Of a DNA stretch of 64,000 bases, positions 55,678 through 64,000 are shown one piece after another. The notes under the pieces were generated by a model that worked only from the letters and a program-made list of their open reading frames with translations, was not told the origin of the DNA and did no database searches. The stretch comes from Cavenderia fasciculata (lineage: Eukaryota; Evosea; Eumycetozoa; Acytosteliales; Cavenderiaceae), in contig NW_004457736.1 of NCBI RefSeq assembly GCF_000203815.1, positions 1-64,000 of the forward strand, read 5' to 3'. The first letter of the stretch is position 1. Each line of letters starts with the position of its first letter. Both the position numbers and the translations under genes were made by a program.

Positions 55678-58600
55678 TTAAATCAAATTATTATTATTAC
55701 GATTATAATTAGTGTTTTGTTGTTGTTGTTGAGATTGTTGTTGATTTCCATTCCACTGATTATTCATATTATTATTTAAACCAACATTATTAAAATTATT
55801 TATATTCTTTTGATGTTGTTGTAAAATTTGTTGGTTGTTATTCATACCAGCAAATATATCATTTGTAGCATTATTAAATACTGATGAGGATCCTCCTCCT
55901 CCTCCATAGGAGGATTGATTAAAATTATTATTATTATTCATATTATTATTGTAATTGTTGTTGAAATTATTATTATTATTGTCAGTGGTCATATTAAAAT
56001 TATTAAAACCACTATTACCACTGCTACTATTAGTGCTATAGTTATTAAGCGGTTTTGATGACGAGGAAAAAGAGTTATCATACTTTAATTGTGTAGAATT
56101 ATTATTATTATTATTAGTTGTGATATTATTATTATTTGATCCTGCATTTGATGTAGGTTGAAGTAGTGTCATTCCACTGCTGCTGCTACTGCTACTATTA
56201 CCACTATTTAACCCCATTCCCATTCCCATATTCATATTATTATTGTTATAATTGCTACTTGGATTATAACCCAAATTCATAGAGGTATTTTGATAGTTTC
56301 CTGTATTTCCAACAACTGTGTTTGATGAAAATGAAGAGGAAGAAGAAGTAAATGGCATTGGATTGGATGATGATGACGAGGATGTGGTTGGAGTGATTGG
56401 AGTTGCTGAAAAGTCATCCAAATTATAGTTATAGTTGGGTGCAGGATAAGATGATTTAGAAGTGGATGAAGATGAGATTGGAGTGATTGGGGTTGATGAT
56501 GATGTTGTTGGAAGTGGGGTCAATAAACTTGAAAATGCATTATTATTATTATTATTATTATTAGTGTTGTTATAGGTATTGGTAGATGATGAGGGTATTG
56601 TGTTTGTAGAGTTGGGATAGCTTAATTTGGGAGAAGGATTGCGAAGTTGGATGGGTGGAGTATTGGATGATGTTGATGGAGGAGGTGGAGTCATTGAAGT
56701 AAAGTCTGGTGAATCAAATACAGATCCACTACCCATTCCTCCTTTACTACTACTACTATTGGCTGTTGTTGTTGTTGTTGTTGGACTAATCTTGTCTGAT
56801 GATGAAGAAATTGGTGAAATAAAATTTGAAGGTAGAGTAATCTTTCCAAATGCTTGATTATTACTATTGTTACTGGTGGTTGGTTCCAAGAATCCTCCAT
56901 TGTCGGCAAATGGATTTGTACTATTTGAAAGACTAGTGCCACTGCTGTTGGGAGGAGCTCCTCCAGCAGATGGATTGATTACCCTTTCAAACTTATCATC
57001 AGTCTCTTGTGGCGATTTGGTGTATCGTTTGAGATTGTTTAGTTCGTTGAGACGTTCTGCCTCATAGGCTGTCAAAACGTCCTTGACCACCTTCATGATG
57101 GTTTTAAATTGCTCCAAATCAATGTGCTTGTCTGCACTCATTGGAATTAGAGCTGGCAACACTTTAAGTGCCAATAATTCACCTCCAAGTTTTTTTGAAA
57201 TGGCTTCATACACAAATACCAATGCCTCTAAAATAGGTGGACTATTGTCAATTGATAAAATCTTTTCCAAATTTGGTAGCATTGATTCTTCAATTAATTT
57301 TTTATCCAATAATGGTATTAATCTAAATCAAGTTAAGAATGAAATAATTTGATTAGAAAACGGAATAGTTTCCATAAATAAATATAAAATATTAAAATAT
57401 TTACAAAGAAAACCATTGAATTGATTTTGTACGAATATGTAATGGGAAACCTCCAACAACCAAATTAGTCAAACGGGGTACTACACCATGACTAATAGCA
57501 TCATGATCGAAATGCTTGATTACAATAGTTGAAACATTTAAACATTGGAATATAATCTCTGGTGTTGGTCCACACATTGTACCTAAAACTATTGGTAATA
57601 CATCTAAATTAAATAAATAATTAAATTAATAAACATTCATATATTATTATTAATATTATTTTTTTTTGTTTATACAAACATTTTTTAATATATTCATTTG
57701 TTGATTTATCAACTATAGTTTCTAAACTTTCAAGAATACAAGCCAATACTTCATTTTTTGGTTCCTTGTTGGTGAGGATTTGTTTGAGGTTGGGAGCAAT
57801 AGCTTGCATGAAATGATCTTTTTTAAGTTCCTTGGAGATTGCGAGAATACAAGGAAGGACCACATAGAGAGTACGCTCGTTTGAAAGTTCTGCAATGAGG
57901 GTTGGGAGGAGATAGTTGATTTGAATATGACTTGAAAATTGAGTCAATATTCTCAACAGTCCTCTAAAGAATTGTAATCGTGATTCCTCTTCCTTTTGGA
58001 CAATATTGGCGAGATAGACCAACGACTTTACCTTGACATCAGAGAAATAGGCAGATCTAACAAAACTTTCAACATCACCTCTTAGTGATGGCTCACCAAG
58101 TAGAATGGTACATACACGAGCACTGTCTAGCAAATGTGACTTTTTCTGTGCCTCTTGTTTGGCGTTGGAAAGTCGAGAGAGGTAGTATGAAGAAACACCC
58201 ATCTTGGAGATTGTCTCTCCGGCCTGATCCAACGATCGATCCAAATTCAACGATATCTCACTAATGATTCGACCAATACTAAAGAGATCACTATTGTACT
58301 CCCATTTCTTTTGTTGTACATATTCAGGTGGCAAATAATCCAAATCTGGTAAAATGATCGATCCTTCATCATACCCATACTCTTTCATATCATGACTCAA
58401 TCCATGAATTGAATCTTGTTTATCTATTCCACTTGAAAATCCTAATCCTCCAATTTTCCATTTCAACTAATTAAAAGTAAATCAAAAAAAAAAAGGTTAA
58501 TATTATAGGAGTTGTGATTATTTGTTTGTTTGTTTGTTTGTTTGTTTGTTTGTTTGTTTGTTTGTTTGTTTGATTACATACAGTCTTTGTAATGAATATT

Positions 58601-59018
58601 GATTTTGGGGATATATTTCTATGAAGTAACTTGGCAGTTTGATTTAAAAAGTGTACACCTTCAATCAATTGAGATATACCCAATTGAATCTCCAATTCTT
58701 CAAATGTAAAATGAGGTTTGTTTGCTTCGACCGATGATACTTGGTTTGATTTCTTTGAGCTTCTATGTTGTTGAATCAATGCGTCTAATGTTGCCAAGAT
58801 GGGTTCAGTTGCAAAGTACATCGTTGTCTTTGTCTCCTCAATGGGACTAACTACCTGTAAAATGGCAGGATGACGTAATCTCTGTAGACTCTGTGCTTCC
58901 TTTTTCAAATAGTCTATAATCTCTGTTTGATTTGCTTTTGGTAACTTTTCTATTGATTTCTTTTCAAAGTACTAAAGAGATAGAGAGGAGAAGAGGGATC
59001 ATGATAATTGGGTCAGTC

Positions 59019-59053
<35 letters not shown>

Positions 59054-59073
59054 CTATGTAATTGTTTCTACTA

Positions 59074-59124
<51 letters not shown>

Positions 59125-59289
59125 ATATAATCTTACAAAGACAGAAGTTTCTTCAGATGATGATTTCTTGATTGCATCATGTATTTTCCAAAATCTAGTT
59201 GGACATCTGACCTCTCTTAGATCATAGTCTTTGACAGGTGATATAGCAGATGACAGGAATCCCTTCACTTTTTGTGAGAATCCTTCCAT
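55678..59289 (-). CDS. SCY1-like pseudokinase (SCYL2-like)
   Basis: Five exons: 59137-59289, 58582-58971, 57680-58466, 57405-57603, 55678-57322; 1057 aa. Residues 1-330 form a kinase fold ([38 protein letters not shown]) but the catalytic loop reads [11 protein letters not shown], lacking the HRD Asp, and the DFG position is IGGLGFS, so it should be inactive. Residues about 330-620 are HEAT-like helical repeats as in SCYL proteins. The C-terminal 400 residues are very Asn/Ser/Thr-rich with NPF motifs ([15 protein letters not shown]), consistent with clathrin/EH-adaptor interactions as in SCYL2 (CVAK104). Predicted role in clathrin-dependent trafficking between trans-Golgi and endosomes. Confidence 0.92.
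58518..58575. repeat. (TTTG)n repeat in SCYL2-like intron
   Basis: About 13 TTTG units within the intron 58467-58581. Intron 58972-59136 of the same gene also holds a (TCAA)n run (59018-59052) and a (TC)n run (59073-59118). These are intronic microsatellites without visible coding role. Confidence 0.9.
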
Positions 59290-60132
59290 CTTTCTTTCTC
59301 TTTCTCTTTCTTTCTCTTTCAAAAAAGATAATAGTGAACAGATAAGACAGAGATGATATTAAAGCTCGATTTGCCGATCGACGTATGAAAAAAAAGATTA
59401 ATTAAATTTAAATTGTGAGCAAGGAACTTGGAAAACAAATTAAAAATAACATTGTAAGCTTTTGAGCGTACAATGTTACATTCATTCACCTAGAAGCTCA
59501 TATCTCTTAGTCTATACCTCCTCCCTCTTATGACTCCTAGGAGTCATACTTGCCAAGTTCAAGATTCATTCCTTCATTAATATATTATAATGAACTTCCA
59601 TTTATCATTGTATGTATCATAATTAGTTTAATTTAATTAATTATAATCCACATTCTCTCTCTCTCTCTTTCATGATAGAGATGATGATGATTATTATTAG
59701 TGTATAACAAGATGCTCGTGATTGGTTTTGTATCACCCCTTTCTCTCTTTGTGTGTTTCCTTGTACCCCTCCCTCCTCTTCACCACCAACTCATCAATAC
59801 AACGAGTGGTATATGGGGGCAGCAGGCACACTTCATCATATTAATATGATGATAATAATAGCATGATTAATGATTATAATGATAATGATGATGATGAATG
59901 ATATAGGGGGTGTTATGAATGTTGTAGGTTGGGGATTCTTACATACAAAATAGTAGCAGTAGTTTATTTTTATATAATAATCATTTGTTATTTATTTGTT
60001 GTTGCAGTGCAGGACATGAGAATATAGTAGAGGTAGAGAGAGAGAGATAGATAGAGATCTGGTTATTAATGTGGAAAAAGAGAAGGAAATCAACAGGGAA
60101 GGAATACAAGGCAAGATATATTTGATCATCAC
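59290..60132. other. Divergent promoter region with a 20-bp palindrome
   Basis: Between SCYL2-like (minus) and the class C receptor (plus). A perfect 20-bp palindrome, TATGACTCCTAGGAGTCATA, lies at 59529-59548. GATGAT repeats occur near 59885-59897. No ORF or RNA gene. Confidence 0.75.
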
Positions 60133-63100
60133 ATGGCATATCTTCGAATCAAGATCTACCTGTTGATCATTCTATACCTGATCATTTTGGCATCCAACAA
60201 TAATAATCATTTAATATGTATGTAAATCAAATGAATGAATGATGAAATGATCAACAATACTTTCTTTATACTTACTCCCAAGTTTATCAGATAAACTATA
60301 TAGTAGTAGTAGGAGTATAGAAGAAGAAGAAGAAAAAGATGGTAATAATAATAATAATAATGGACATTATAGATCAATATTCTTTTATTTTGTAAATGGT
60401 GAAGAATATTATATATCACCTAGTGGAATTGATGAGAATGGATGTAGTTCAATCGAGAACCCATGCAAATCCATACAATACGCAACGAATATAGCAGCAC
60501 CATTCTCTACCATTATATTGGCACCTGGAACCTACTTTGAATCCAATTATTCGCAGATTTCAAACAGTCATTTGGCTTTGGTGGGGTCTGGTGGATGTGA
60601 TGTGACTACTGTCGTAGGACAAGGTACAGGACTATTATATGTGGTGCAAAGCACACTGACCATCACCGGTATTACCTTTGCACGAACCAATCGACCCACT
60701 CCATTTATATACACCTTCTTTTCAGAACGTGACCTAAATATTCTAAATTATCGAACCAATTTGAATCTGGTCCAAAGATCTGCCCCCATCTATTTAAATC
60801 AATCCATCGTTCATTTTATTGATTGTGCAATCACACAATTCAAACTATTCAGTGAAAGTGCTGCCATATTTTCAACTTATTGTATGTATACAAACAACAT
60901 AATAATATTTCTTGAATATAAATTAATCTCTCTCTCATTTTTTCTTTTAGCTTTCATTTCAATGACAAATACAACATTTCAAATCAATCAATCGAATTTA
61001 ATATTTCTTTATAATACTACATTCACAGGTGGATTATCTCAATTCATTAGTAATAGAGGTAATCTATTAATTACATCGATTCAATCAAATCTTCACATGG
61101 TAGATTCAATAATTGCATACAATAGATATTCTTCAGGTATCATTTCTGGTAAGTGAGTCAACAAAAATAATAGTAATAATATTATTATTATTCTTCTAAC
61201 AAAAGTTAATATTACTTGCTATCTCTATAGATTCTTGGGTAAATTTAACAAATGTATTGGTCATTAAAAACTTTGGTGTCAATTCATTTCTATTTGGACC
61301 AAGGGGATCGAATTTCAACATAAGGAACAGTAGATTTATTGAGAATCGTTCAAATGAATCTTATACTCTATTATCCTTAAACACAAGACAAGCAACAAGG
61401 TATATAAATGATTTATCAAAATGACAAACAATATTGACTATATATCTCTTGTTATTAATTTTTATTTCTTTTTTTTTTTTGTAGTATATCATTATCAATT
61501 ATCGATGGTAATTCAAATTTGGTTGGTGCAAGTATTGGTACTAGATCAAGTGGATTAAATATAACTTTTTGCGAATTTAGAAATCAATTTAATATAATGA
61601 TTAGTTTAATGGGGAGTTCAATATCATTGGTCCAATATTGTTCATTTAGAAATTTCTCTGGAAATGTATTTTCATCTGATTCCTCAACCGTTTTGATATT
61701 GTTTTTTTCTTCTTTTAAATGTAACTAAACTATAAATACTTTATACTCTTGAGTTTTCTGTACTAATAATCATTTTTTTATATCTTTTCTAGCATTTAGT
61801 GGAAAGATATTAGACTTTTATAGTAAAGGATCAGCCTATGTTATATCAACAACAGTTTGTGGAGCACGATCACAAGTACCAATATTCCAACTTGAAAATA
61901 GTGCCTATATGCTCGCCTATCAGATCGTGGTCTACAACAATTCAGCATACAATGTGATTGATATGGCTCAGTCAAAGTTGGATATGTACGCATCAAACAT
62001 TTCCTCTACGAATGGATCATCTATAGTGATTGGTGTAGATGGTTATGTAATTAGAATGCAAGATTGTTTTTTATCTGAAAATGATATTCAATTGGTATGG
62101 ATGACCCAAACAACCAAAAGACAGTAGTATCCTCCTTACCTGTACCTGCTAATCATTTCATTTATTTTTCTTTTAATTTTTATTTAGGGAGGAGGAATAT
62201 TCTTTTTAGATCAAACTGGTAATATAACGGTACTTGTAACAAGGTTTACAAGGAATAGATCAACGTATGGGACGATTATAGTATTTGGTGATCCAAAGTC
62301 GAGTGACGAGATTAAAGAAAAGATATACTTTTCACACCAACCAACACCGTTATTGGCAAAGACCCTGTTTTCAAATTCAACGTTTATAGGAAACACAGCG
62401 TTGGGTGCTGGTGCATTGGTGTTTTACATCAAAAATGTGTTTATCAACTTTACATGTCTCGATTGCTACATGCTAGGAAATCGAGCAAAACAAGGTAATC
62501 TTATCAATTCCAACTACTACTCGTATACAGTATCGATGGCATCAAATGTTACAACACCCATCATTTTACAAATCGTTATCCGAGCCAAAGACTATTTCGG
62601 ACAACGGTTCCAAGGATCATCAGAGATATCGTATACTGCAGTGTCGGCCAATCCCGATTTCAGGGTGAGTGGTATCACAACAGTGCTTATGAATGTACAA
62701 GGTGTCACTGTCATGTACAACATTCAGTTGTCTGGTGTACCCGGTTCCAACTATACACTCTTTTTTGCTTCTTCGCCGAGACCGATCGGAGGCAATGTCA
62801 ATCAAACCATTACCTTTAGAAAGTGTGAGAATCCATACGAACCACACAACGTCACTGGCATATTCTACTGTCTCAAGGAGAAAACAGTTAGTGATCTCAA
62901 CAAAATTATAGTAACTTTCTTGGTTGTCGTTATCGGACTGCTCACACTCTTTTGTTTTGGTATTGTCATTGTCTATTGGAGTCATCCAATCATTCGATTC
63001 TCAAATCAAATATTTCTCTGTGTCATATTATTTGGTTGTTGTGTTTTACTTGCTAGTCTTATTACATCTTTTATCGTTTCTCCTATTTCGTATGTAAAAC

Positions 63101-64000
63101 GTTTAAAGAAAAAATTAATACTCTAAACATATTTATTTATTTATCTATTTATTTAGATGCCGACTACGAAGTATATTATTACCAATGGGATTGGAAATAC
63201 CAGTTGCAGCATTGGTTGTCAAACAATATAGATTATGGAAGATAAGAAAGGTACTCAGCTTTCAATTGAAATCTGCAATGGGAAACAGATACTTTATAAC
63301 CTACACGGCAGCCTATTTGGTCATCCCGACCATTGTTGTGGTTGTAGCATGCACATTTAAACCTCTTACTCCAGCAATCTCATTTGATACAAGGGACTTG
63401 ACCTATTCGCATATTTGTCTTGGTGACAAAGCCTACCTCTACGTCATTGTCTTTTTAATCTATGCATTGATATTCCTATTCATCACTTGTGTATTGGTAT
63501 TCAAAACTAGACCATATCGTTCATCACCTGGATCTTTTAGTGAACCTACTTATTTAGGTATTTTAGTATGTAAACATTTAAATTAATATAATAATATTGT
63601 TATTGATTTTTAATATTTATTAATTATTCAATCATTCATATTTATTTAGACATACAATTATTTAATTATTCTACTTTTATTGTTACCTTTAAGGTTCTCA
63701 TTCCCAACCAAACCAAATGCACAATTTTTGATTGTTGCAGTGGCATCTTTGATTTTTGTGTTGGTGACACTTGGACTATTGTTTGTGCCAAAACTCATTG
63801 TACTGTTTAAACGAAGAGCAGTGGTACATTCACTCACCAAGTTTATCGAAGCACAAAGTGAAGAGTTGGAACGAAACAAAGACATATTGCAATTCTACGA
63901 ACTGTATGGCAACGAAGAGGGAATATTAAACTTTGCAAACCCCAACATCTTCTCACCGGACAGTACCAGTGGTTCTACAATTAGCTACAGATCACACAAG
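60133..64000 (+). CDS. Class C seven-helix receptor with beta-helix ectodomain, 3' part missing
   Basis: Nine exons up to the window end: 60133-60217, 60291-60881, 60951-61148, 61231-61399, 61485-61720, 61793-62094, 62188-63089, 63157-63565, 63650 onward; at least 1081 aa. Signal peptide (MAYLRIKIYLLIILYLIIL), then a right-handed parallel beta-helix ectodomain that starts NGCSSIENPCKSIQYA and GTYFESN, followed by many short strand units over about 700 residues. After CKNPYEPHNV-type sequence (RKCENPYEPHNVTGIFYCL) come seven membrane helices: VTFLVVVIGLLTLFCFGIV; IFLCVILFGCCVLLASL; the SCRLRSILLPMG..VVKQYRLWKI helix with family TM3 motif; YLVIPTIVVVVACTF; VIVFLIYALIFLFIT; ILTYNYLIILLLLL; FLIVAVASLIFVLVTLGLLF. 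This is a 7tm_3/GABA-B-type bundle (dictyostelid Grl-like). The first intron acceptor is uncertain. Confidence 0.85.

Follow-up and report, generated by a model that had tools for sequence, protein, structure and literature searches.

A class C receptor of probable GrlP/Q/R type with a probable beta-helix ectodomain in Cavenderia fasciculata

The window, which is the whole stretch of 64,000 nucleotides analyzed here (C2:1-64000), originates from the dictyostelid Cavenderia fasciculata, a species that we take to be the D. fasciculatum of the older literature. At its end it contains a single nine-exon gene for a receptor in which a long extracellular region of the beta-helix type precedes the seven helices of a class C receptor. 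The gene is genuine and belongs to a kind that is already known. The explanation that accounts best for the data, and which is very likely, is a receptor of the GrlP/Q/R type that combines an ectodomain resembling polymorphic membrane proteins (PMP) with a class C core and that is one of three paralogues in this genome. For the architecture and the family of the receptor as described below, the sequence argues with great confidence.

Structure of the gene and its product

The gene extends from position 60133 to position 64582 on the plus strand and encodes a protein of 1274 residues without internal stop. Its stop codon lies 582 bases beyond the end of the window; to reach the 3' end, the contig was followed past the window. 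By this extension, which had been proposed in the first-pass annotation, the gene was completed. All eight introns are short (67-93 bases each), have GT-AG borders and contain 69-89 % A+T, the composition of the window being approximately 68 % A+T (mean of 32 rows over the window). In order, the intron phases are 1,1,1,2,1,0,2,0.

From the N- to the C-terminus, the product comprises a hydrophobic N-terminus, a low-complexity stretch, beta-helix-type repeats, a possible beta-sandwich, a linker with two cysteines, seven helices and a Ser/Asn-rich tail. Exon 1 (60133-60217) provides the start codon and the hydrophobic N-terminus, which may be a signal peptide or an anchor (hydropathy peak at residues 1-24). 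Exon 2 (60291-60881) encodes a stretch rich in N and E, after which the repeat region begins with the motifs NPCKSIQYA and PGTYF. The P and C of NPC as well as the P, G and Y of PGTY are invariant across the three paralogues. The putative beta-helix-type ectodomain covers residues about 66-640 (60401-62526, with introns inside this span) and runs through exons 3 to 6 (60951-61148, 61231-61399, 61485-61720 and 61793-62094) into exon 7. It had initially been estimated at about 700 residues, but the repeat region is nearer to 575 residues, because roughly the final 100 residues ahead of the linker seem to form a module of their own. This possible beta-sandwich module (residues about 641-735; 62527-62811) includes a conserved DxF...G stretch whose D, F and G are invariant in the three paralogues. 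The linker that precedes TM1 is marked by C740...YC755 (62824-62871), both cysteines and the tyrosine again being invariant in all three proteins. Within residues 1-790, 21 N-glycosylation sequons were counted. The class C seven-helix domain (residues 761-1012; 62887-63793), whose hydrophobic segments are in keeping with seven helices, is spread over exons 7 to 9, of which exon 8 occupies positions 63157-63565 and exon 9 positions 63650-64582. The predicted cytoplasmic tail starts within the window (63794-64000) with the segment IEAQSEELERNKDILQFY, which is kept in both paralogues, and continues as a Ser/Asn-rich region up to position 64582.

The class C seven-helix core

In a Pfam search for which the first 1081 of the 1274 residues served as query, the seven helices matched the 7tm_3 profile with an E value of 1.7e-31 and 110.2 bits (cut-off 33.5), residues 761-1012 being aligned with profile positions 3-251 of 251. 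The comparison of the seven-helix part with the PDB yielded 54 distinct sequences at E <= 1 (best 4.5e-11), which were metabotropic glutamate, GABA-B and GPR158/metabotropic glycine receptors. The similarity to class C receptors is far above chance, and the identity of the core can be assigned with certainty at the level of the sequence. The first-pass annotation was prepared to abandon the receptor if the helices gave no class C match; the profile search revealed a strong one.

A cysteine in TM3, an FNE-type motif in the third loop and a PK motif in TM7 are hallmarks of class C receptors. In the window protein, the corresponding residues C829, FSE and FVPK align with mGluR2 and mGluR7, while a cysteine of the second loop (C915), which exists in all three paralogues, lies two columns off the mGluR7 cysteine in the pairwise alignment. 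In its TM3 cysteine, FNE-type motif and PK of helix 7, the core is thus like that of the metabotropic glutamate and GABA-B receptors. By contrast, the ectodomain of the latter is a Venus-flytrap and that of the window receptor is of the beta-helix type. A Venus-flytrap (ANF/Bmp) is common among class C receptors but does not define the class. Neither a Bmp nor an ANF domain was detected at the locus, be it by Pfam on the first 1081 residues or by profile searches of the genome at E <= 0.01. At this threshold, Bmp was found at three places and ANF_receptor at one place of the genome, all of them at other receptor loci.

Paralogues and the class C set of the genome

The genome (31.0 Mb, 21 contigs) was searched with the ectodomain of the window gene at E <= 1, the best candidates being scored. 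Nine matches were obtained, six of which fell on the gene itself, two on C1:2320k-2323k and one on C5:2596k. The 7tm_3 search of the genome picked up both of these loci as well. Their products, 1192 residues for C1 and 1216 residues for C5, show the same order of parts as the window gene, and in both the first exon is hydrophobic and ends at a phase-1 intron. The intron phases are 1,1,1,2,1,0,1,2,0,0,0 for C1 and 1,1,1,1,2,1,0,1,2,0 for C5; compared by order and phase, with positions judged by eye, the series is largely common to the three paralogues. Identities among the paralogues amount to 25.1-28.5 % in the repeat region and to 29.5-33.7 % in the seven helices.

In all, the 7tm_3 search of the genome gave nine matches, which represent seven loci: three receptors with Bmp, one with ANF and three of the beta-helix type. 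These receptors were compared in an unrooted tree of the seven-helix parts (seven rows, all from this genome; one inner fork was left open). The three beta-helix-type receptors cluster with support of 100/99 and the three Bmp receptors with 97/95. The seven loci equal the number of family 3 receptors that Hall et al. (2023, PMC10445921) counted in D. fasciculatum, as against 15 that are given for P. pallidum in the same part of that paper.

Relation to known receptors

The Grl family of Dictyostelium discoideum was described by Prabhu et al. (2007, PMC1885808). In their account, GrlP, GrlQ and GrlR have no Bmp domain, form one cluster and are significantly larger than the other Grl proteins (1407, 1095 and 1604 residues, respectively). 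The long N-termini of these three proteins were reported to contain a region homologous to the polymorphic membrane protein of Chlamydia (PMC1885808). The window receptor, with its 1274 residues, resembles them in the class C helices, the long N-terminus and the lack of Bmp. While the PMP homology of GrlP/Q/R is published, the PMP link of the window receptor is indirect and runs via a protein encoded on another contig, C10, which is discussed below. The window gene, which belongs to another dictyostelid and was likened to GrlP/Q/R by their published descriptions, would best be filed as a dictyostelid Grl (family 3/class C) receptor of the GrlP/Q/R type. According to the respective part of Hall et al. 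(2023, PMC10445921), GrlP has been kept throughout the dictyostelids, the N-termini of the receptors of clades 8-11 have no recognized domains, and PbH1 appears in the list of abbreviations.

A second group of comparable receptors was reported for anaerobic gut fungi: Seppala et al. (2016, PMC5168858) ascribed a pectin lyase fold to around 30 % of the class C receptors of these fungi, in some cases along with parallel beta-helix repeats. These proteins and the window receptor have in common class C helices and a beta-helix-type ectodomain instead of ANF; they differ in being fungal, and their fusion possibly arose independently. The main text of a GPCR survey in relatives of animals (PMC12716839) does not mention beta-helix or pectate. 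Since class C receptors with a sensor of the beta-helix type are in print for two lineages (PMC1885808, PMC5168858), the architecture is not new. The departure from known class C receptors on which the first-pass annotation had placed its emphasis was therefore anticipated by the PMP-type GrlP/Q/R in 2007 and by the pectin-lyase-fold receptors in 2016, as far as the available parts of the two papers go, and there is no support for the claim that the receptor is of a new kind. Following these papers, the class C signalling core appears to be modular, as it is joined to a sensor other than the Venus-flytrap in amoebae and in fungi.

The ectodomain and its fold

It is quite probable that the receptor ectodomain folds as a beta-helix. 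The search with the C5 ectodomain against the genome resulted in 12 matches, eight to C5 itself, one to the window gene, two to C1 and one (E 7.5e-4) to the protein at C10:226k (L037 1589-3277, minus strand), a PMP-type beta-helix protein and the likely relative of the ectodomain. By eye, the start of this surface protein is hydrophobic; repeats, one membrane helix and a short tail are seen as well, but no receptor core. A profile made of the three paralogous ectodomains matched it in hhalign with a probability of 93.8 % (E 1.7e-7), whereas the control with the reversed C10 protein gave 0.1 % (E 0.6). In blastp, with E values calculated for one subject sequence, the window gene, C1 and C5 matched the C10 protein at 0.023, 5.5e-5 and 2.0e-8, respectively, compared to best values of 4.5, 0.24 and 0.11 for the reversed protein. 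No match was obtained by phmmer of the receptors against the C10 protein. On the Beta_helix profile, the whole C10 protein reached an E value of 1.3e-5 and 25.3 bits, just below the cut-off of 25.9; in the six-frame search its frame scored 29.2 bits, and 35.5 bits together with neighbours in frame. The corresponding values for Chlam_PMP are E 0.015 and 15.9 bits for the protein, below the cut-off of 20.6, and 21.6 bits in the six-frame search.

The relationship to the C10 protein also bears on the nature of the ectodomain. It might otherwise be a carbohydrate enzyme with activity, pectate-lyase-like or of another kind, or a lectin that senses its sugar. This would recall the plant-digesting gut fungi, for whose class C receptors with a pectin lyase fold carbohydrate binding was proposed in the same part of PMC5168858. 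An enzyme or lectin of this sort is unlikely, as families of carbohydrate enzymes or lectins are absent from the matches of the receptors in Pfam, NCBIfam and the PDB and as the only relative found in the genome that is not a receptor belongs to the PMP type, though it has a sub-threshold CBM49 match (E 0.082).

The profile searches with the receptors themselves leave some room for another fold, namely an Asn/Ser-rich solenoid or irregular repeat that is not a right-handed parallel beta-helix. At E <= 5, none of the Pfam beta-helix profiles matched any of the three receptors (queries of 1081/1274 residues for the window gene, 1066/1216 for C5 and 1055/1192 for C1). Searching the genome at E <= 1 with Beta_helix (PF13229) gave 21 places, the best 22 candidates being scored, and with Chlam_PMP (PF02415) 26 places, the best 27 candidates being scored; none of these places is at one of the three receptor loci. 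The search for a beta-helix profile that had been envisaged for this protein thus failed to produce a match of the receptor to either family, a direct Chlam_PMP match being absent. The NCBIfam profile beta_helix_1 matched one of the three receptors at E 0.41, and the sole PDB match of the ectodomain was a co-chaperonin (E 1.5); by profile, there was none. The periodicity of the repeats is significant in none of the receptors (87, 156 and 213 of 1000 shuffles as high); for the window gene, the best lag was 23, which 87 of the 1000 shuffles equalled or exceeded. AF2 predictions made without relatives were poor as well, with a pLDDT of 45.5 for exon 7 and of 34.3 for 160 residues of exon 2. The structure prediction that had been suggested for the spliced product was obtained for fragments and at low confidence; what it yielded is seven strands in residues 110-212 of the exon 7 model, followed by two long helices, and these strands may be taken as a hint of the beta-sandwich module.

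Against a different fold stand the match of the ectodomain profile to the C10 protein, with the scores of the latter on Beta_helix and Chlam_PMP, the PMP homology published for GrlP/Q/R and the excess of the motif FxxN, an excess that all three paralogues share. The motif occurs nine times in the window gene versus 3.94 +/- 1.82 expected, a number that was reached by 56 of 5000 shuffles. The excess is strongest in C5 (13 versus 3.98 +/- 1.83 expected; 0 of 5000 shuffles), and the count in C1 was reached by 62 of 5000. For [FIVL]xxN[NRTCY], 59 (window gene), 0 (C1) and 0 (C5) of 5000 shuffles reached the observed count, and for a small-residue motif 273, 52 and 6, respectively. All these shuffle counts are generous because the patterns were picked after the sequences had been read. 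Taken together, a fold other than the beta-helix is quite unlikely.

One gene for ectodomain and core

Exon 7 (62188-63089) comprises 902 bases and is stop-free from the last ectodomain repeats through the sandwich-like module and the two-cysteine linker to TM1 and TM2. Because this one open exon runs from the end of the repeats through the linker into helix 2, the fusion does not depend on any splice junction. The ectodomain and the class C core are encoded by a single gene. The gene model and the 7tm_3 match uphold what had been read from the window at first, i.e. class C helices fused in frame with an ectodomain of the beta-helix type, at a locus where neither Bmp nor ANF was matched. The junction 62094/62188 named at that time is not the joint of the two domains but a common intron of phase 0 within the ectodomain. 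That two adjacent genes, one for a secreted or membrane-bound beta-helix protein and one for a separate class C receptor, were taken as one is extremely improbable and this reading was dropped: other open beta-helix frames exist in the genome, such as the one at C10:226k, and an intron lies directly before the linker in both C1 and C5, but a split near 62100-62900 is contradicted by the unbroken exon 7 of the window gene and by the order of parts that recurs in the two paralogues.

Possible function

The ectodomain may project from the plasma membrane in the form of a long, glycosylated rod. Such a rod could bind a macromolecular or surface ligand on bacteria, other amoebae or matrix. Through the short linker, binding or a rearrangement of the dimer might be relayed to the helices of the core, which by analogy with other class C receptors would activate a heterotrimeric G protein. 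A surface-sensing role of the window receptor is conceivable and is proposed here tentatively. It is more doubtful that receptors of the GrlP/Q/R type are contact receptors, whose PMP-like beta-helix would read a cell surface (that of bacterial prey or of other amoebae) and whose class C core would pass the contact on to G-protein signalling. In this contact-receptor proposal, the beta-helix would be one that the receptors share with adhesin-like surface proteins of the genome. If the proposal were true, the adhesion GPCRs of animals would offer a parallel.

The portion of the literature on Grl proteins that was searched names no ligand for GrlP, Q or R. The gene grlQ is listed, with the values 0.77, 0.98 and 0.21, in a table of PMC2474670 that shows how D. 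discoideum responds to two strains of Pseudomonas aeruginosa, an entry that supports bacterial sensing at most weakly. Among the Grl genes regulated on exposure to bacteria, the relevant part of PMC7078664 names grlA, G, H and L but not P, Q or R. The clear domain borders of the window receptor could aid ligand tests on GrlP, Q and R.

Neighbouring genes, other beta-helix frames and chance matches

Some further profile matches stayed below the cut-offs and were taken as chance. They are, in Pfam, Mononeg_mRNAcap (E 0.022) for the window protein and Adeno_E3_14_5 (E 0.046), TMEM154 (2.4), Insulin_TMD (0.34) and DUF3377 (0.56) for the paralogues, and, in NCBIfam, PRK10808.1/porin OmpA (E 0.077).

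Among the Beta_helix matches listed for the genome, by far the strongest (E 1.8e-21; next listed 3.1e-7) is located at C19:528.9-529.8 kb in an open frame of 664 residues. A cluster of frames of the beta-helix/Chlam_PMP type (452-573 residues, all on one strand) was detected on contig C7 at 193.6-205.0 kb and is apparently a tandem family of surface proteins.

In the window, the receptor gene is preceded by a divergent gene on the minus strand (55678-59358), which from its appearance presumably encodes an SCYL2-type pseudokinase with an Asn/Ser-rich tail. Downstream of the receptor, as judged by eye, a frame at L009 4760-5450 resembles the sigma subunit of an AP complex, and the sequence from L009 6055 onward resembles the start of a VPS13-type protein.
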